Positions 1 through 52,283 of a stretch of DNA of 64,000 bases are shown one piece after another (the stretch's first letter is position 1; every line of letters begins with the position of its first letter). Below the pieces are notes generated by a model. It was given only the letters and a program-made list of their open reading frames with translations, made no database searches and was not told where the DNA came from. The DNA lies in contig JAKQCX010000015.1 of NCBI GenBank assembly GCA_029558905.1, positions 1 to 64,000 of the forward strand, read 5' to 3'. A program made the translations under genes and the position numbers. The stretch is from Pseudomonadota bacterium. GTDB lineage: Bacteria > Pseudomonadota > Gammaproteobacteria > Burkholderiales > Thiobacillaceae.

Positions 1-346
1 GGTAGGCCTCGGCGCGGCGGGCGATGGAGCGGGGGTCGCGGTCATAGCCCTTGCCGGTGTCGGGTTCCACCACGTCGCAGGTCAGGATCAGGGTGGACTC
101 GTCGAAGAAGGGGTCGAGTCTGGCGGTGGTCGGGTCGGGCACGAGCAGCATGTCGGATGCCTGGATGCCCTTCCAGCCGGCGATGGAGGAACCGTCGAAG
201 GCCTGGCCTTCCCTCAGCCTGTCGGCATCGACGAGGTGGGCGGGCACGCTGATGTGGTGTTCCTGGCCGCGCAGGTCCGTGAAACGGAAATCGACGAAGC
301 GGACCTCTTTTTCCTGGACCAGGCGGAGGATGTCTTGATGGGGCAT
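1..346 (-). CDS. glnA: Glutamine synthetase type I, N-terminal part (cut by window edge)
   Basis: Makes glutamine from glutamate, ammonia and ATP in the cytoplasm. Only the first 115 codons are present. The reading starts [10 protein letters not shown], runs through the beta-grasp N-domain ([11 protein letters not shown]) and reaches the latch and active-site entry motif [11 protein letters not shown], then DPFF and YDRDPRSIA, all hallmarks of proteobacterial GlnA. The ATG at 346 is preceded by an AGGAGCC ribosome binding site. It is divergent from the molybdoenzyme operon and has a sigma-54/NtrC control region just upstream. The rest of the gene lies beyond the window. Confidence 0.96.
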
Positions 347-801: not shown

Positions 802-3800
802 ATGCGTGCATCACGTTTCAGCTTCTCGCGTCGCCATTTCCTGAAAGATTCGAGTGTCGTGGGCCTGGCGGCCGCCGTCACGCCCGGCGAGGTATTCGCG
901 CAGCACCAGTATCGCTATCTGGAACCGGTGTCGGTGGAGAACCCGCTCGTCGACTACCCCAACCGGGACTGGGAGAGCCTCTATCGGGACATCTACCGCT
1001 GCGACAAGAATTTCGTCTTCATGTGCTGCCCGAACGACACGCACAACTGCCTGCTCAACGCCTACGTGAAGAACAACGTGGTGGTGCGCATCGAGCCGAC
1101 CTTCGGCTACGGCAAGGCCACGGACCTCTACGGCAACGGCGCGTCCCACCGCTGGGATCCACGCTGCTGCCAGAAGGGCCTGGTGCTGGGACGACGCGTG
1201 TACGGCGATCGCCGCATCAATGGCGCCATGCTGCGCAAGGGCTTCAAGGAGTGGGTGGACCGCGGTTTTCCGCGTGATCCCGACACCGGGGCCGCGCCCA
1301 AGGAGCTCATGCGGCGTGGCTGGGACAGCTGGGTCAAGGTGAGCCATGCCGAGGCGTTCCGCTATCACGCCAAGACCCTGCACAACGTCGCGCAGACCTA
1401 TTCCGGTGAACAGGGCCGCAAATACCTGCTGGCACAAGGCTACGACCCCGACATGGTGGACGCGGTCGAAGGGGCCGGCACGCGCGTGATGAAGTTTCGT
1501 GGCGGCATGGCCCTGCTGGGCGCGATACGCATCGTCGGCGCCTATCGCATGGCCAACAGCCTGGCGCTATTGGACTACCACGTGCGTGGCGTGGAGCCGG
1601 ATCAGGCCAAGGGGGCCAGCACCTGGGATTCCTACTCGTTCCACACCGACCTGCCCCCGGGGCACCCCATGGTCACCGGAGACCAGACCAATGAATTCGA
1701 GTTGTTCGATACGGAGAACGCCAAGCTGCTCCTGGTCTGGGGCATGAACTGGATTACCACCAAGATGCCGGACAGCCACTGGATGACCGAGGCCCGCCTG
1801 AAAGGCACCAAGGTGGTGGCGGTGACCGTGGAGTATTCGGCCACGGCCTCCAAGTGCGACGAGGTGGTGGTGATCCGTCCAGGTGCGGACACGGCCTTCG
1901 CGCTGTCCCTGGCCCAGGTGATCATTGCCAACGGCTGGCACGACAAGCAGTTCGTCAAGCGCTACACGGACCTGCCCACCCTGGTGCGCATGGACACCCT
2001 GGAACGCCTGCATGCGCGCGACATCTTTCCGGGCTATCAGGACAAGACCCCGAAGAACTGGATCCATGTGCTGGCCGAGGGCGAGAAGGCGCCGCCCACG
2101 ACGGAGCAGGATGGGCTCTATGTGCATGAGAAGCAGCTCGCGGACCTGGCCGACTTCGTGATGTGGGACAAGCGCGCCGGCAAGCCGGTGGCGGTGGGGC
2201 GCGACTCCCTGGGCGAGCATTTCGACAAGCTGGGCATAGACCCGGCCCTCACGGGCAGTTTCGAGGTGACCACGGTGGATGGCAAGCAGGTCAAGGTGCG
2301 CCCGGTGTTCGATCTGACCAAGGAATACCTCGACGCCAACATGCAACCCGTGCAGGCCGAAAAGGTCACCTGGGCGCCGCGCGCCGCGATCCAGAGCCTG
2401 GCGCGCGACATCGCGCAGAGCCAGGGCCAGACGCTCATCGCCGTGGGCATGGGCCCCAACCAGTTCTTCAACAACGACAACAAGGATCGCGCGATCTTCC
2501 TGCTGTTGTCGCTGGTGGGCAGCCTGGGGCGGCATGGCGGAAACATCGGCAGTTTTTCCGGCAACTACAAGCTCACGCTGTTTTCCGGGCTGGGCAAATA
2601 CTCCATGGAAGACCCGTTCGCCCTGCAACTGGACGCGGATGGCCCGGTCAAGACCCGCTACACCACGCGTTACGAGTCGATGCACTACTGGATCAATGGT
2701 GAGCGCCTGATGAAGGCGGGCAACAAGAAGATCACCACCGGCAACCATGTGCCGACCCCCACCAAGACCATCTGGCAGGTCAACTCCAACTCGTCCCTCG
2801 GCAACCAGAAGGGGCACTACGACGTCGTCAACAACACCCTGCCGCGCTCCGAGTGCGTCGTGTACAACGACTGGTGGTGGACGGCCTCCTGTGAGTACTG
2901 TGACATCGTCTATGGCGTGGACTCCTGGATGGAGTTCGAGTATCCGGACATGACCGCGTCCTGCACGAACCCGTTCGTGCAGCCCTATCCGCGCACGCCC
3001 ATCAGGCGGGTCTTCAACACGGTGTCGGACAACGAGACCTATCTGGGCGTGGCGCGCGAGCTGAGCAAGATGACGGGAGACGAGCGTTTTGCCGATGCGT
3101 GGAAATTCGTCGCGGACCGGCGCGTGGATGTCTATCTGCAGCGCATCATCGACTACTCCGCACCCCTGAAGGGCTACCGCTGGAGCGACATCGAGGCACG
3201 CGGGCGCATGGGCATTCCTTCCCTGATGAATACCCGCACCTACCCGCGTATCGGCAGCTATGAGCAGGTGGCGGAATCCAAACCCTGGTACACCCGCACG
3301 GGGAGGCTGGAGTTCTATCGGCCCGAGATCGAATTCATCGAGGCAGGCGAGAACCTGGTGGTGCACCGCGAGCCTTCGGACGCCACCATGTACGACCCGT
3401 GCGCCATCCTTGCCGCCCCGCACGAGGCGATCCGGCCGAAGCGTCCGGCGGACTGGAACATCCCGGACGAAGACCGCGGGCACATGTCGCGCCAGATGCG
3501 CAATACCACGTATGACGTCGAGGGCCTGCTGAAAAGCAACCATCCCCTGCCGCAGAAGGACAAGGCCTTCAAATACGTGTTCCATACGCCCAAGTATCGC
3601 CATGGCGCGCACACCATGCCCATCGACACGGACTTCATGGCGGCCCTGTTCGGCCCCTTCGGCGACATGTATCGCCGCGACAAGCGCTCACCGTCCGCGG
3701 GCGAGATGTATGTGGACATCCACCCCGAGGATGCACGCGAGATGAACCTGGAGGACGGGGACTATGCCTGGATCGACGGTGATCCGGCGGAACTGCCCTT

Positions 3801-4302
3801 CCGTGGCTGGAACGAACCGGGGCGCGAGGAGGAGTACAAGGTTGCCCGGCTCATGGCGCGCGTGCGCTACTACCCCGGCACGCCGCGTGGGGTCACGCGC
3901 ATGTGGATCAACGGCTACATGGCCACGCCCGGCTCGGTGAAAGGGGCCGCGACCCGTCCGGACGGCGCGGCCAAGAACCCGGAGACCCATTACCAGGCGC
4001 TGTTCCGCTTCGGTGGCCATCAGAGCCTCACACGCTCCTGGCTCAAGCCCACGCAACAGACCCACAACCTGATCACGCGCCAGAATTACACGCACATGCT
4101 CACCAAGGGCTTCAACGTCGATGTGCACTGTGTGACCGGTGCGCCGCGCGAGGCATTGGCCCGCTTCACCAAGGCGGAAAACGGCGGCATCGATGGCAAG
4201 GGCAAGTGGCGGCCGGTGGAAATGGGGCTGCGTCCGACGAATGAAAGCCAGACCCTGAAGGAATATATCCAGGGCAATTACGTAACAATCAAAAAAGCCT
4301 GA
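802..4302 (+). CDS. NxrA/NarG-like periplasmic molybdopterin oxidoreductase, alpha (catalytic) subunit
   Basis: Type II DMSO-reductase-family catalytic subunit, 1166 residues, carrying Mo-bisMGD and an FS0 iron-sulfur cluster. A twin-arginine signal (SRRHFLK, residues 9-15, likely cut after VFA at 33) sends it to the periplasm. FS0 candidate ligands are C75-x3-D79-x3-C83 and C122/C123, inside CCPNDTHNC. That pattern and the flanking [11 protein letters not shown] and DLYGN match what I remember of NxrA of Nitrospira and anammox bacteria better than NarG (H-x3-C-x3-C). D283 in [10 protein letters not shown] aligns with the molybdenum-ligating Asp of NarG (YCDLPP). It is longer than selenate, chlorate or ethylbenzene enzymes (about 900-980 residues). 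It starts a tight operon with beta, gamma and chaperone genes; ribosome site AAGGAGACACC. The substrate (nitrite oxidation, nitrate reduction or other) cannot be read from sequence. Confidence 0.87.
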
Positions 4303-4313
4303 AGGAGACGATG

Positions 4314-5441
4314 ATGGCAAAGGTATACAACTGGCAGCTGGGACGGGAAATGGACTACTTCTATGAGGTGGTCCGTCCCAAGCGGCAGTTCGCGATGATC
4401 TTCGACACCAACAAGTGCATCGGCTGCCAGACCTGCACGGTGGCCTGCAAGACCACTTGGACAGCGGGACGCGGCCAGGAATACATGCTCTGGAACAACG
4501 TCGAGACCAAGCCCTATGGCTACTACCCTTTGGGCTGGGATGTGAACATCCTGGACAAGCTGGGCGTGCAGGATATGACCTCGCCGGTCTATCAGGGCAA
4601 GACCCTGTTCGATGCCGCACCGGATGGCGAGCGCGTGCTGGGCTATCTGCCCGATGAACGGGACTATGCGTACCCCAACATTGGCGAGGATGACGCCACG
4701 GGCCTGATGTCGCAGGGTGCGTTCTATGCCGCGCCGCACATGCAGTGGATGTATTACCTGCCGCGTATCTGCAATCACTGCACCTATGCGGCCTGTCTGG
4801 GCTCCTGCCCGCGGCAGTCCATCTACAAGCGCCCCGAGGATGGCATCGTGCTGCTGGATCAGGACCGCTGCCGCGGTTACCGGGAATGTGTGAAGGCCTG
4901 CCCCTACAAGAAGGTGTTTTTCAACCCGATTACACGCGTGTCCGAGAAATGCATCGGCTGCTATCCGGCGGTGGAGAACAACCGCCAGACGCAATGCACC
5001 ATCACGTGCATCGGCAAGATCCGCATGCAGGGCTTTATCACCACGCCCGACAAGGCCCGGGAAGACAGCCCCATGGATTACATCATCCATATCGCCAAGG
5101 TGGCCAAGCCGCTGTATCCCCAGTTCGGCCTGGAACCCAACACCTATTACATTCCACCGGTCCACGTGCCGCCGAAATACCTGTACCAGATGTTCGGCTG
5201 GGGGGTCGAGGAGGCCATCAATAAGTACCGTACCGCCCTGGAAGACAAGAAGCTCCTGGGTGCGCTCCTGCTGTTCGGCGCCAGCCTGGACATCGTCCAC
5301 AGCTTCAAGGTGGAAGGAAACTACAGCATCGGCTACGACGAGAAGGGCTCGGAAATCGTGCGCGTACCGCTGCGTGAACCGACCCATGTGCGTATCGCGC
5401 ACGACCAGCAGCACCAGGTGTACCGCACCAACATCACCTGA
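4314..5441 (+). CDS. NxrB/NarH-like iron-sulfur beta subunit
   Basis: Electron-transfer subunit with four Fe-S cluster motifs, about 375 residues. With the second of two adjacent ATGs as start (six bases after AGGAG; the first, at 4311, is only three away), cluster I is C35-x2-C38-x2-C41-x3-C45. Next come [13 protein letters not shown], then [11 protein letters not shown], where Tyr replaces one Cys as Trp does in NarH and so suggests a [3Fe-4S] centre, then CIGCYP and a later C-x3-C. The opening VYNWQLGR and the stretch [16 protein letters not shown] resemble NxrB. It has no signal peptide, so it would travel with the Tat-exported alpha subunit. It begins 11 bases after the alpha stop. Confidence 0.9.
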
Positions 5442-5462
5442 TGGCAAGGAAGGAGACCTATC

Positions 5463-6350
5463 ATGATCCAGAAGAAAGTCCGGAAATTCTGTCAGGGCCT
5501 TTCCAGCCTGGCGATCCTGTATGGCCTGTCGGCCTGTCCCGTGCAGGCGGAGGAAGCCGCCGCGGATCCTGCGGCCTTCACGGCGACGCAGGTGAGCGAG
5601 CCAGGCCCCATACTCGACCCCACCAGTCCGGTCTGGGAGCGGGCGACACCAGTGCGGGTGGAGATGATGGCGCAGGTGACCGAGTTGCCCCACGATCCGG
5701 ACCCGGCCGTCAAGGAGCTGGAGGTGCGTGCCGTGCACAACGGCCAGTATCTTTCTCTGCTGCTGCGTTGGGCCGATCCAACGAAGGATGATGTGCTGCG
5801 TCCCGATGCCTTCGGTGACCAGGTGGCGGTGCAGCTGCCCATCGACGCGGAGAATGTCCCGAGCCCCATGATGGGCCACAAGCCGGGCGGCAAGGTGAAC
5901 ATCCTGCAGTGGCGTGCCGCGTTCCAGCACGACCAGGACAAGGGTGAGCCCACGATCCATGCGCTCTATCCCAACGCAGTCATCGACATCTACCCCGATT
6001 ACGTGCTGCGGGCCACCGATTCCCGGGTCTACAGTGGTGCCCTGGGAGTGGACAACCCGGTATCGCGCGGCAGGGTGAGCCCCGTGCTGGACCAGATGGC
6101 GGAAGGCTGGGGCACCCTGACGGTGAAACCGGATCAGCAGGGGGACGGGAAGGGCATCTGGCAGGATGGCATGTGGAACGTGGTCATCAACCTGCCCCTG
6201 GCCACCATCAGCCACAATGCGCCACGCCTGTTGCCCGGCAAGGAGACCATGACGGCCTTCGCGGTGTGGGATGGCGGCCATGGCGAAGTGGGCTCCCGCA
6301 AATCCTGGTCCAACTGGTTGCCGCTGAAGCTGCAACGGGGTCAGCCATGA
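5463..6350 (+). CDS. Haem-b-binding gamma subunit (EbdC/NxrC-like)
   Basis: 295 residues with an N-terminal signal peptide (basic start, hydrophobic LSSLAILYGLSACPVQA, cut near AEE). The remainder fits the ethylbenzene-dehydrogenase/DMS-dehydrogenase gamma domain, a beta-sandwich binding one haem b: ELEVRAVHNGQYLSLLLRW, then GDQVAVQLP, and a C-terminal FAVWDGGHGEVGSRKSWSNW. It would pass electrons between the beta clusters and a periplasmic cytochrome c. It lies 21 bases after the beta gene and overlaps the next gene by four bases. I cannot identify the axial haem ligands with confidence. Confidence 0.82.
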   Translation: MIQKKVRKFCQGLSSLAILYGLSACPVQAEEAAADPAAFTATQVSEPGPILDPTSPVWERATPVRVEMMAQVTELPHDPDPAVKELEVRAVHNGQYLSLLLRWADPTKDDVLRPDAFGDQVAVQLPIDAENVPSPMMGHKPGGKVNILQWRAAFQHDQDKGEPTIHALYPNAVIDIYPDYVLRATDSRVYSGALGVDNPVSRGRVSPVLDQMAEGWGTLTVKPDQQGDGKGIWQDGMWNVVINLPLATISHNAPRLLPGKETMTAFAVWDGGHGEVGSRKSWSNWLPLKLQRGQP

Positions 6351-7114
6351 GCAGGGCGCGCGGCCCACTCGATCCACTCTGGCGCGCGTCCCTGCTGCAG
6401 GTCATCGCGCGCGGCTTTCATTACCCCGCGGATGCCGAACATGCCGGACAGATGTGCGCGGCACTCGCGGGTCTCACCAGCCCGCCGCCGGCCGGTCTGC
6501 CGGCGGTTCTGAAGAACGCGATACGCCAGGTTCAGGAACATTGGGGTGCGGTGCACACGGAGGACGGGCTGGCGTCGGCATACAGCCAGCTGTTCCTGAA
6601 CAATGCCCTCTGCTCCATGTATGAGACGGCCTACAGCGGGCCCGGGGGCGTGGCCGGGCGTACACACGAGATTGCCGATATCTCCGGTTTCTACCTGGCC
6701 TTCGGCCTGCGCAGTTCAGATGTGGAGGCGGACAGGCCCGATCATCTCTGCGCGGAGCTGGAATTCCTGAGCATCTTGCTGCTCAAGTGGGTGCATGCGC
6801 GTGAACAGGCCTGGAACGACAGGGGGAAAATCACCGTCAAGGCCATCAAATCCTTTTTGACGGACCACTTGGGACGCTGGTATGGGGCCTTCGCAATGCG
6901 CCTCGGCGAGCAGGAGGCGCCAGCCGTCTACCATGCGCTCGCCGCGCTGCTGGTGCATGCGCTCGATGCCGAATGCCGGGCCTGGAACGTGCAACCCCTG
7001 CCCATGACCGGCGAGATCGCACATGACTCCATGCAGGAGGATCAGCTGATCTGCCCCAAGGCCGCCGCCGAGGCGGAAGGTGGCGACACGGCGAGTGCTT
7101 GCATGCCGATGTGA
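6347..7114 (+). CDS. TorD/NarJ-type chaperone for the molybdoenzyme alpha subunit
   Basis: 255-residue, mostly helical acidic protein of the TorD/DmsD/NarJ-like family. The pattern EAYSQLFLNNALCSMYETAYSG, then GFYLAFGLRSSDVEADRPDHLCAELEFLSILLLKW, is the classic chaperone core (helix with FGL, then DHL-x2-ELEFL). Such proteins bind the Tat leader of the catalytic subunit and hold it for cofactor loading. The ATG overlaps the gamma stop (ATGA), showing translational coupling. Gene order alpha-beta-gamma-chaperone matches ebdABCD. Confidence 0.87.
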   Translation: MSRARGPLDPLWRASLLQVIARGFHYPADAEHAGQMCAALAGLTSPPPAGLPAVLKNAIRQVQEHWGAVHTEDGLASAYSQLFLNNALCSMYETAYSGPGGVAGRTHEIADISGFYLAFGLRSSDVEADRPDHLCAELEFLSILLLKWVHAREQAWNDRGKITVKAIKSFLTDHLGRWYGAFAMRLGEQEAPAVYHALAALLVHALDAECRAWNVQPLPMTGEIAHDSMQEDQLICPKAAAEAEGGDTASACMPM

Positions 7115-7256: not shown

Positions 7257-8342
7257 TCATAGACGGAAGACCCTGGCGTGGCGCAGCAGGTAGCGGGCCA
7301 GGCCCACGAACACGATGGTCCATGCTCCCAGTGCCACGTATACGAATATCCGTGGCAGGAGGTGGAGGAAGTCCAGGCTCATTGCCTCGATCATCTGATG
7401 TGTGCTGGCCGCGTACATGCCCAAGGGAAAGACCGCCCCCCAGTAGAGCGGGTCGTACCGCAGGGGAAAGCGCTTGTATCCGTGGCGCCACACGCTCAGG
7501 ATCAGCAGCATGGGTATCCACCAGGTACCGGTCGCCCAATAGAACACGGTGAACCCCTTAATGAAGGGCAGCAGCGACAACAGGTAGGGCGCGTCGCGCG
7601 AGTTCAGGATGAGCAATGATCCCGCCAGGGTCGAGATCGCCATGGCACCCATGTTGATCCAGTAGGGTGGCGTCAGATCGCCGGGAGAGAACGGGAAGAA
7701 CGTGTACCGATAGAAGATCAGCGACATCATCCAGATGTAGAGCATGCCCCCCCACAGCCACATCGAGAGCGCCAGGAAATTCATCTCGAAGCGGATGGGC
7801 TGCTGGATATGCGCGGCGAGCAACGCGCCGAACACCGCGATCGATTGGGTTGCCACCACTGCCAGCAGCCAGGCGCCGCTGATTCCCCGATCGAGGGTTG
7901 GCTTTAGCTCCTTGACCGTGAATCCGGTAAAGATCGTGTAGGTGAGCCCGACCCACATCACCGCCGCCAATCCCCAAAGCATCAGGGCGATACGGTACTC
8001 CGCGATCAGCAGCACGAACTGGCTGCCGAGAACACAGGTACCCGCCACGGTTGTGAAATAGCCGGGCCCGCGGAGGTGATCGGCTAGGTCGGCGAATACA
8101 CGGCGTGGGTAGCGCACGATACGCAGGATGTTCAGCAGCCACAACACGGCATAGGCGAGACAATTGAGTAGAAACAGCGCCTTGGCCGTGAAGTGCAGGG
8201 CCGAAAGATGCGCTGCGATCGAGACGATGCCCGTCGCCATGACCATACCGAAGTAGGCGGGCGACAACTCGGCCAGCCGGGCCGGTGCGATTTCCCCCCG
8301 GACCTCCGTTGCGCGCCCGCATGCGTCGGACGAGCCACTCAT
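7257..8342 (-). CDS. TDT/SLAC1-TehA family anion channel or dicarboxylate transporter
   Basis: Integral membrane protein of about 361 residues with around ten hydrophobic helices. The opening LSPAYFGMVMATGIVSIAA is the family signature of the tellurite-resistance/dicarboxylate transporter group, which includes bacterial TehA and the plant anion channel SLAC1. It ends convergent with the NXR-like operon, 142 bases away. The chosen ATG (8342, MSGSSDACG) precedes the first helix by about 30 residues; longer in-frame starts exist at 8441 and 8501 and no start has a clear ribosome site. A role in nitrite or nitrate passage is only a contextual guess. The 282 bases upstream hold nothing I recognise except a weak hairpin near 8600. 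Confidence 0.8.
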   Translation of the reverse strand: MSGSSDACGRATEVRGEIAPARLAELSPAYFGMVMATGIVSIAAHLSALHFTAKALFLLNCLAYAVLWLLNILRIVRYPRRVFADLADHLRGPGYFTTVAGTCVLGSQFVLLIAEYRIALMLWGLAAVMWVGLTYTIFTGFTVKELKPTLDRGISGAWLLAVVATQSIAVFGALLAAHIQQPIRFEMNFLALSMWLWGGMLYIWMMSLIFYRYTFFPFSPGDLTPPYWINMGAMAISTLAGSLLILNSRDAPYLLSLLPFIKGFTVFYWATGTWWIPMLLILSVWRHGYKRFPLRYDPLYWGAVFPLGMYAASTHQMIEAMSLDFLHLLPRIFVYVALGAWTIVFVGLARYLLRHARVFRL

Positions 8343-8624
8343 ACCGGTGTGCGGGGCAAGGTGGCCCCGTCTTGGAATACCAGGCTTGGCTTGCGCCCGC
8401 TTTGGCCACCAAGCTCGGCCAGGCGATCCAGTACATGCCATGTGTCCATCATGTCGAATGGCCCCAGGTGGAACTAAACGTGGCAGCCGTGTGCTGGCCA
8501 CCGTCGAGGACGCGGTCCTCCCATTTCAGGTTCGCGCTGCCTGTGCCGTTATTTCATGCGATTCCGGCATGCGCCGCCAGTACTTTCTGTGGTCGGTGCC
8601 CGTGCCTGGTGCGGCCACCGACGG

Positions 8625-49932: not shown

Positions 49933-50415
49933 ATGCCAACCTTTGTCTACATGACCCGCTGCGACGGCTGCGGGCACTGCGTCGACATCTGTCCTTCGGA
50001 CATCATGCACATCGACAAGGTCACCCGTCGCGCCTACAACATCGAGCCGAACATGTGCTGGGAGTGCTACTCCTGTGTCAAGGCCTGCCCGCAGCATGCG
50101 ATCGACGTGCGCGGCTACGCCGACTTCGCGCCGCTCGGGCATTCGGTGCGCGTCAAGCGCGATCCGGAAAAGGGCGTCATCGCCTGGCGTATCAAGTTCC
50201 GCAATGGGCGGAAGGACATGGACCTGCTCGCCCCGATCACCACCAAACCCTGGGGCGTGGCCATCCCCCAGCTGCGCTCCGTGCCCGCTCCCTCAAGGGA
50301 AGCGCGTGACAGCCAGCTGCTGTACAACGAGCCGAAATACATTCGCATGGACGAGGGGGGGCTGCATACCCTGGAATCCAATGGTCTGAAAATGAAGGTG
50401 GGGATCTACTACTGA
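49933..50415 (+). CDS. aprB: Adenylylsulfate reductase beta subunit
   Basis: 160 residues. Two [4Fe-4S] clusters are coordinated by C10-x2-C13-x2-C16-x3-C20 and C42-x2-C45-x2-C48-x3-C52, the ferredoxin-like core of AprB. The tail (KYIRMDEGGLHTLESNGLKMKVGIYY) wraps round AprA in known structures. It carries electrons released as AprA oxidises sulfite plus AMP to APS. The stop overlaps the aprA start by one base (TGATG). Confidence 0.97.
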   Translation: MPTFVYMTRCDGCGHCVDICPSDIMHIDKVTRRAYNIEPNMCWECYSCVKACPQHAIDVRGYADFAPLGHSVRVKRDPEKGVIAWRIKFRNGRKDMDLLAPITTKPWGVAIPQLRSVPAPSREARDSQLLYNEPKYIRMDEGGLHTLESNGLKMKVGIYY

Positions 50416-52283
50416 TGGCTTACGACACGATCATCGAGGACGACATCGACATCCTGGTGTGTGGCGCCGGTCTGGGTGGCACGGGCGCGGCGTGGGAGGC
50501 CCGCTACTGGGGCCAGGACAAGAAGATCGTCATTGCCGAGAAGGCGAACATCGACCGCTCCGGCGCGGTCGCGCAGGGTCTGTACGCGATCAACTGCTAC
50601 ATGGGCACACGCTTTGGCGAGAACAATCCTGAGGACCATGTCCGCTATGCGCGCATCGACCTCATGGGCATGGTACGCGAGGACCTGCTGTTCGACATGG
50701 CGCGTCACGTCGATTCGGCGGTGCACCAGTTCGAGGAGTGGGGCCTGCCGCTGATGCGCAACCCCAAGACCGGCGCCTACCAGCGCGAGGGCCGCTGGCA
50801 GATCATGATCCATGGCGAGTCCTACAAGCCCATCGTCGCCGAAGCTGCGAAGAAATCCGCCGACAAGGTGTTCAACCGCATCTGCGTGACCCACCTGCTG
50901 ATGGACGAGTCGAAGGAGAACCGCGTCGCGGGCGCCGTCGGCTTCAACGTGCGCACCGGTAACTACCATGTCTTCAAGTCGAAGACCGTGATCGTTGCCG
51001 CCGGCGGCGCTTCGAACATCTACAAGCCGCGTTCGGTGGGTGAGGGCGCGGGCCGGGTCTGGTATGCGCCCTGGTCGTCGGGCTCGGCGTATGGGCTGCT
51101 GATCCAGGCCGGCGCGAAGATGACGCAGATGGAGAACCGCATCGTGCTGGCCCGTTTCAAGGACGGCTATGGCCCGGTAGGCGCCTATTTTCTGCATCTC
51201 AAGACCTACACCCAGAACGGCCTGGGCGAGGAATACGAATCGAAGTGGTGGCCCCAGCTGCAGGAAATGGTCGGCAAGGAATACCTCGACATCGAGGCCT
51301 CGCACCGCACGCATCGCCCCATCCCCACCTGCCTGCGCAATCACGCCTTCATCAGCGAGGTCAACGCCGGACGCGGGCCGATCCACATGGTGACGATGGA
51401 GGCCTTCCAGGATCCGCACATGGAGGAGATCGGCTGGCACAACTTCCTCGGCATGACCGTCGGCCAGGCGGTGCTGTGGGCGGCGACCGACGTCGATCCC
51501 AAATACGAGAACCCGGAGCTCACCACATCCGAGCCCTACGTCATGGGCTCGCACGCGACCGGCTGCGGCGCCTGGTGTTCGGGCCCGGAAGACGTCTCGC
51601 CGCCGGAATACTTTTGGGGCTACAACCGCATGACCACCGTGGAGGGACTGTTCGGCGCCGGTGATGCGGTGGGCGGCACGCCGCATGCATTTTCGTCTGG
51701 CTCTTTCACCGAAGGCCGCCTGGCCGCCAAGGCCGCGTGTCGATACATCGACGACGGCAAGGCCCAGGGCATCGTGGTGTCGCAGACGCAGATCGAGCGC
51801 CGCAGGCAGGAGATCTACAGGCCTTTGGAGCACTACCGGATCTACCGTAACGAGATCACCGCCGGCACGGTCAACCCGAACTACATCAACCCGCGTCAGG
51901 GCCTGGATCGCCTGCAGAAGCTGATGGACGAGTATTGCGGCGGTGTGACGGTCAATTACATGACTAACGAGAAACTGCTGCACATCGGCCTGAAGAAGCT
52001 GAAGATATTCGAGGAGGACCTGGAAAAGCTGGGTGCCGAGGACATTCACGAACTGCTGCGGGCCTGGGAGCTGAAGCATCGCCATCTCACTTCCGAAGCG
52101 GTGATGCAGCACACCCTGTTCCGCAAGGAAACACGCTGGCCCGGCTATTACTATCGGGGTGATGCCATGAAGCTCGACGACGAGAACTGGCACGTGCTGA
52201 CCGTATCGCGCCGCGATCCGAAGACCGGCGAGTACACGATGGAAAAGGCCCCCTGCTACCACCTGGTGGGCAAGGACGATTAG
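50415..52283 (+). CDS. aprA: Adenylylsulfate reductase alpha subunit
   Basis: FAD-containing catalytic subunit, 622 residues. In sulfur oxidisers it runs in reverse, joining sulfite and AMP into APS. It shows the FAD fold DILVCGAGLGGTGAAWEARYWG, DRSGAVAQGLYAINCYMG, GGASNIYKPRSVGEGAGRVWYAPWSSGSAYGL, FMGSHATGCGAWCSGPEDVSP-like region and GLFGAGDAVGGTPHAFSSGSFTEGRLAA. AprM in place of Qmo supports the oxidative direction, though the sequence alone does not prove it. Confidence 0.97.
   Translation: MAYDTIIEDDIDILVCGAGLGGTGAAWEARYWGQDKKIVIAEKANIDRSGAVAQGLYAINCYMGTRFGENNPEDHVRYARIDLMGMVREDLLFDMARHVDSAVHQFEEWGLPLMRNPKTGAYQREGRWQIMIHGESYKPIVAEAAKKSADKVFNRICVTHLLMDESKENRVAGAVGFNVRTGNYHVFKSKTVIVAAGGASNIYKPRSVGEGAGRVWYAPWSSGSAYGLLIQAGAKMTQMENRIVLARFKDGYGPVGAYFLHLKTYTQNGLGEEYESKWWPQLQEMVGKEYLDIEASHRTHRPIPTCLRNHAFISEVNAGRGPIHMVTMEAFQDPHMEEIGWHNFLGMTVGQAVLWAATDVDPKYENPELTTSEPYVMGSHATGCGAWCSGPEDVSPPEYFWGYNRMTTVEGLFGAGDAVGGTPHAFSSGSFTEGRLAAKAACRYIDDGKAQGIVVSQTQIERRRQEIYRPLEHYRIYRNEITAGTVNPNYINPRQGLDRLQKLMDEYCGGVTVNYMTNEKLLHIGLKKLKIFEEDLEKLGAEDIHELLRAWELKHRHLTSEAVMQHTLFRKETRWPGYYYRGDAMKLDDENWHVLTVSRRDPKTGEYTMEKAPCYHLVGKDD

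Follow-up and report, generated by a model that had tools for sequence, protein, structure and literature searches.

A predicted periplasmic nitrate/nitrite oxidoreductase operon of the Nitrotoga lineage in an apr-bearing Burkholderiales genome

Introduction

In the nitrite oxidoreductase (NXR) of Kuenenia stuttgartiensis, the alpha subunit ligates molybdenum through Asp275, contacts the substrate through Asn70 and holds the Fe-S cluster FS0 with three Cys residues and Asp71, while the gamma subunit binds haem b through Met155 and Lys305 (PMC8387239). A further lineage was earlier described as comprising the NXR of Ca. Nitrotoga, characterised and putative nitrate reductases (NAR), and proteins without an assay; the sequence motif Y-4x-D-11x-QM was reported as that of Nitrotoga (PMC6050957). 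A characterised member of the lineage is the periplasm-facing NAR of Hydrogenobacter thermophilus (cited in PMC6050957). A 'nitrate reductase' of Beggiatoa sp. 4572_84 appears in an alignment of PMC8387239, and the enzyme of Ca. Magnetaquicoccus inordinatus UR-1 was reported as NarGHI-like, with an unpredictable substrate (PMC6783814).

Here we describe a new member of this lineage in a Burkholderiales host that has two other nitrate reductases, and delimit the clade to which it belongs, with its gene-content and regulatory pattern. The operon lies in a stretch of 64,000 nucleotides, hereafter the window. We read it as encoding a periplasmic nitrate/nitrite oxidoreductase of the Nitrotoga/pNAR lineage that, in its clade and host, would serve mainly in nitrate reduction, a reading to which we assign a probability of roughly 60%.

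Operon organisation and subunits

The ORF listing revealed a tight four-gene operon at window positions 802-7114, with gaps of 8-21 bp or a 4-bp overlap between genes. Ribosome sites of the AAGGAG/GGAG type stand ahead of alpha, beta and gamma, and the overlap precedes the chaperone ORF (Table 1). The first-pass annotation had proposed an exported, complete and NXR-like set of alpha, beta, gamma and chaperone, and the ORFs, the Tat signal and the family matches agree with it throughout, including the individual sequence features described below.

Table 1 Features of the window, with the evidence for each assignment.
Feature	Position	Strand	Length	Evidence
NXR/NAR-like catalytic alpha subunit, Tat-exported	802-4302	+	1166 aa	ORF; TIGR01409; full-length match to Kuenenia NxrA
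Fe-S beta subunit, NxrB/NarH-like	4311-5441	+	376 aa	Match to Kuenenia NxrB
Haem-b gamma subunit, NxrC/EbdC-like	5463-6350	+	295 aa	PF09459; match to 7b04_C
TorD/NarJ-type maturation chaperone	6347-7114	+	255 aa	PF02613 (65 bits); TIGR03482 (67 bits)
SLAC1/TDT-family anion channel or transporter, convergent to operon	7257-8501	-		PF03595 (185 bits)
aprBA	49933-52283			TIGR02060 and TIGR02061, both over cut-off

The alpha subunit carries the Tat signal SRRHFLK, which passes the TIGR01409 cut-off (20.4 against 16.7 bits). Among solved structures, its best match was the alpha subunit of the Kuenenia enzyme (7b04; 865 bits, over the whole length), followed by weaker matches to perchlorate reductase (169 bits), NarG (138 bits) and ethylbenzene dehydrogenase (113 bits). 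The FS0 segment noticed in the first pass reads CCPNDTHNC, which corresponds to CSPNDTHAC in Kuenenia NxrA. From the alignment, D283 is the predicted molybdenum ligand, N78 the substrate residue, and C75/D79/C83/C123 the FS0 ligands; the positions equivalent to Asp275, Asn70 and Asp71 of the Kuenenia enzyme are unchanged in 92-94 of the 94 homologues compared. The protein scored 161.5 bits with the NarG model TIGR01580 (cut-off 1084) and 294.9 bits with the type II subfamily model TIGR03479 (cut-off 984.75), and stayed below the cut-off of every NCBIfam type II family model, those for chlorate/perchlorate and selenate reductases among them.

The beta subunit, a four-cluster Fe-S protein, matches Kuenenia NxrB with 372 bits, and its start VYNWQLGR, earlier singled out as NxrB-like, aligns with VHNWHLGR of that protein. 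All 15 cysteines tested are kept in each of 37 homologues. It has no signal peptide, and is presumably co-exported with alpha. The EbdC-like character of gamma is reflected in matches to PF09459 (EB_dh, 92 bits), Kuenenia NxrC (7b04_C, 60 bits) and EbdC (57 bits). Its predicted haem ligands M137 and K280 align with Met155 and Lys305 of the Kuenenia subunit and are kept in 32/32 and 31/32 homologues, respectively. A structure of gamma predicted from the single sequence was too poor to be used (pLDDT 35). Gamma has an N-terminal export signal with a lipobox-like LSAC at residue 25; such a lipobox is found in some clade members and a plain export signal in others, and a lipid anchor is thus possible in the host but not a clade-wide rule. 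The fourth gene proved to encode a TorD-type chaperone as expected, and most clade operons also include one.

Phylogenetic position of the alpha subunit

Homologues were drawn from 369 genomes of the class, 80 named loci, 399 genomes of the order, and plasmids. Added tree references were Kuenenia NxrA rebuilt from alignments, NarG of E. coli and Thermus, ClrA of Ideonella, haloarchaeal enzymes, and the perchlorate reductase of locus L121. Two trees were constructed, one of 63 rows and one of 33 rows under a mixture model; named SerA, DdhA and Hydrogenobacter NAR were left out. In both, the Kuenenia-type alphas form one clade (support 100), whose sister lineage (support 100/100) comprises the window alpha and all sequences with 45-74% identity to it. 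An enforced grouping of only the window clade and the Kuenenia/anammox-type clade was rejected (p-AU 0.0016). A canonical periplasmic NXR inside the Kuenenia NxrA clade is ruled out by both trees and the AU test, and the first-pass placement in the NxrA group of Nitrospira, Nitrospina and anammox bacteria gives way to a sister position.

We also looked for a position of alpha inside a characterised non-nitrogen clade and found none among ClrA and PcrA, compared by tree, and ethylbenzene dehydrogenase, compared by score. A grouping with ClrA/PcrA or with NarG is rejected by both trees, in which ClrA and PcrA lie far from alpha. The type II DMSO reductase family is varied in substrate, and the authors of the UR-1 genome made no prediction for the clade enzyme there (PMC6783814), which leaves room for an organic compound or one of the other oxyanions, chlorate, perchlorate or selenate, as physiological substrate. 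We consider this distinctly unlikely in view of the tree distance to ClrA/PcrA, the weak EbdA match, the scores below every cut-off for those families and the NXR-like active-site pattern, and of the chlorite dismutase family, which had no match in the host or in 21 of 24 clade genomes.

The sister lineage includes a Nitrotoga-like NxrA (L116) and the 'nitrate reductase' of Parabeggiatoa 4572_84 (L082). L116 has the motif Y-4x-D-11x-QM, and its genome belongs to the host's order and carries genes resembling nirK and chlorite dismutase; its reading as Nitrotoga is based on the QM motif, the order and this gene content. The window alpha falls in a separate clade of 24 rows (support 100, identity 64-74%). 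With it are Burkholderiales MAGs, Thiomargarita-labelled MAGs, Rokubacteria, Magnetococcales (Ca. Magnetaquicoccus UR-1 among them) and, as the one member recognised to be in culture, Thioalkalivibrio thiocyanoxidans ARh 2. The closest relative (genome G489, locus L134) is from the same order as the host.

The operon shares with the Ca. Nitrotoga NXR its sister-lineage position, the NxrA-NxrB-NxrC-chaperone set, a Tat-exported alpha, an exported gamma without transmembrane helix, and the Cys in the first cluster motif of beta that was reported for Nitrotoga. It differs in a molybdenum motif that ends in QT instead of QM and in the separate, fully supported clade; identity to the Nitrotoga-like loci L116/L137 reaches only 45% for alpha, 56% for beta and 33% for gamma. 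With the Kuenenia enzyme it has in common full-length homology of alpha and beta, three Cys and an Asp at FS0, the molybdenum Asp, the substrate Asn, and the Met/Lys pair for haem b in gamma, but it stands on the opposite side of a fully supported split and lacks the tubule subunit NXR-T in its operon. The UR-1 enzyme (L046) belongs to the same clade, with 66% identity and the same operon plan, and that of Parabeggiatoa (Beggiatoa sp.) 4572_84 to the same lineage, with 54.5% identity, although the hosts of both are unrelated to the window host.

Host genome and origin of the operon

The host carries aprBA, as the earlier description of an apr-bearing bacterium had it; its designation as a gammaproteobacterium holds in the GTDB sense only, the genome being in the same order as a MAG labelled 'Burkholderiales' (SKW287). 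The alpha gene was not found in 116 other genomes of the host family. The operon has a G+C content of 0.59-0.65, below the 0.669 of the window; tetranucleotide usage shifts at the left end and composition at about 5-8 kb. Third-position G+C is near the contig value. Given the absence from the other family genomes and the lower-G+C segment, lateral gain is the simplest reading, and the operon was probably acquired by this route. Membership of the adjacent SLAC1/TDT gene in the acquired segment is uncertain; in five sister-species loci, no such gene was found next to the RlmL orthologue.

Window positions 1-321 match the opening 321 bases of another contig of this genome, C4, at 90% identity, in the glutamine synthetase gene glnA, and the left contig end is probably an assembly break at a duplicated glnA. 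The operon begins 0.8 kb from this end, beside the duplicated fragment, and this, together with its absence elsewhere in the family and the change in composition, could be taken to mean that the first ~8.5 kb of the contig are misassembled or misbinned and the operon is foreign to the genome. We regard this as very improbable, since the contig is 230 kb long and matches sister species from 8.6 kb onward, genome contamination is 0.26%, the nearest alpha relative is from the same order, and third-position G+C is close to that of the contig.

Nitrogen genes in the host and the clade

A search of the host genome for nirS, nirK and narK, suggested in the first pass, detected nirS and narK. The host has a canonical narK-narK-narGHJI cluster with a true NarG (TIGR01580, 1896.6 bits), as well as NapA, NirS and genes for related d1 proteins; no match to NirK, NosZ or chlorite dismutase was found in the assembly, whose completeness is 89.8%. 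This is a denitrifier's set, which counts for nitrate reduction. The APS reductase link raised earlier for the enzyme is unsupported, its sole evidence being co-occurrence in one genome, for which ordinary sulfur-driven denitrification suffices as explanation.

NarG was over the cut-off in 2/24 clade genomes and NapA in 5/24, and neither in 18/24, counts that come mostly from MAGs of unreported completeness, so that each single absence is weak evidence. NirS occurs in 5 of these 18, where the clade enzyme is the only candidate respiratory nitrate reductase found. NirK passed the cut-off in G435 only, and NosZ in six clade genomes. T. thiocyanoxidans ARh 2 has the clade enzyme, and NarG, NapA and NirS were not found in it; the strain was reported to have a 'partial' nar set and no capacity for NOx respiration (PMC5328954).

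Regulatory sites and gene neighbours

FNR/DNR-type boxes with at most one mismatch were found upstream of alpha in 11/23 clade loci, against 0.33 expected in shuffles. The palindrome, TTGAT-N4-ATCAA with at most one mismatch, was located upstream of alpha in L033, L035, L036, L038, L039, L042-L045, L134, L135, L116, L027 and L028. Several clade operons have Crp/Fnr-type genes nearby, which together with the boxes fit anaerobic or NO-dependent expression. In the host, such a box is present at the start of nirS, and none was found upstream of the window operon or of narK. Such a box also stands at the Nitrotoga-like L116, whose source presumably oxidises nitrite aerobically, so the boxes are no proof of direction.

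No constant neighbour emerged as electron partner among the homologues, near which cbb3, cytochrome c, bd-like oxidase, Mo-cofactor and Crp/Fnr genes vary. In G489, the cbb3 oxidase genes ccoN, ccoP and ccoG (L134, 3807-8543) share the strand of the operon and immediately precede it, and in L035 a cytochrome c gene lies ahead of alpha. As a separate observation, L093 is from a MAG labelled Nitrospira japonica, yet its alpha falls in the Nitrotoga-type lineage; genes for a cytochrome bd-like oxidase and cytochrome c (L093, 6406-9241) lie directly upstream of its chaperone and alpha genes.

The arrangements in G489 and L035 are of the kind that would suit physiological nitrite oxidation in the periplasm, in which cytochrome c would carry the electrons to a high-affinity oxidase, for extra energy or nitrite removal. 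The lineage does contain the NXR of Nitrotoga, for which nitrite oxidation is proven (PMC6050957) and for which L116 with its QM motif stands here, and T. thiocyanoxidans lives aerobically and does not respire NOx (PMC5328954). This reading has against it the denitrification genes of the host and of several clade members, and the FNR-type boxes of the clade; on balance it appears rather unlikely.

Proposed function

An anaerobically expressed nitrate reductase is favoured by the scarcity of NarG and NapA in the clade, the NirS carriers and the FNR-type boxes, and the Hydrogenobacter NAR in the lineage also speaks for reduction. This reading is weakened by the missing box at the window operon, the boxed L116, ARh 2 without NOx respiration, and a host already equipped with two nitrate reductases. 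To our knowledge, no residue tells NXR from NAR in the sister lineage. The Kuenenia enzyme shows both activities (PMC8387239), and residues thus do not settle direction.

In the proposed pathway, the chaperone would help the maturation of alpha with bis-MGD, followed by joint export of alpha and beta by Tat and separate export of gamma, giving a complex either soluble or lipid-anchored in the periplasm. The Met/Lys-ligated haem b of gamma would exchange electrons with a periplasmic c-type cytochrome, and the path between haem b and molybdenum would lead through FS4-FS1 and FS0, in either direction. Periplasmic reduction of nitrate would then feed nitrite to NirS in sulfur-driven denitrification, supplementing the NarGHI and Nap of the host. 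The chemistry is probably reversible. A more speculative idea, which we think unlikely, is that the clade enzyme works in both directions, as a periplasmic nitrite/nitrate switch. Sulfur oxidisers and magnetotactic bacteria, NarGHI/Nap denitrifiers included, would then form an as yet unrecognised guild that oxidises nitrite with cbb3-type oxidases at scarce O2 and reduces nitrate without O2.

The trees place a clade of sulfur oxidisers and magnetotactic bacteria, most of them without detectable NarG or NapA, beside the Nitrotoga nitrite oxidase. Such enzymes are usually annotated as NarG-like or as molybdopterin oxidoreductases, and nitrate respiration and possible nitrite oxidation in their hosts may therefore be misjudged. 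As T. thiocyanoxidans ARh 2 is in culture, the question of direction is directly testable.

Related alpha subunits in other hosts

Several Burkholderiales and other Gammaproteobacteria (L117-L120, L030-L032) carry an anammox/Nitrospira-type NxrA that groups with Kuenenia (support 100), and could possibly be unrecognised nitrite oxidisers. Another bacterial alpha (L029, 1492-4989) pairs strongly with a haloarchaeal one on a Natronococcus occultus plasmid (L122, 6001-9183). The L029 protein reads CTPNCTHNC, with Cys replacing the FS0 aspartate, and the Natronococcus gene, unannotated in its record, seems to shift frame near the 5' end.
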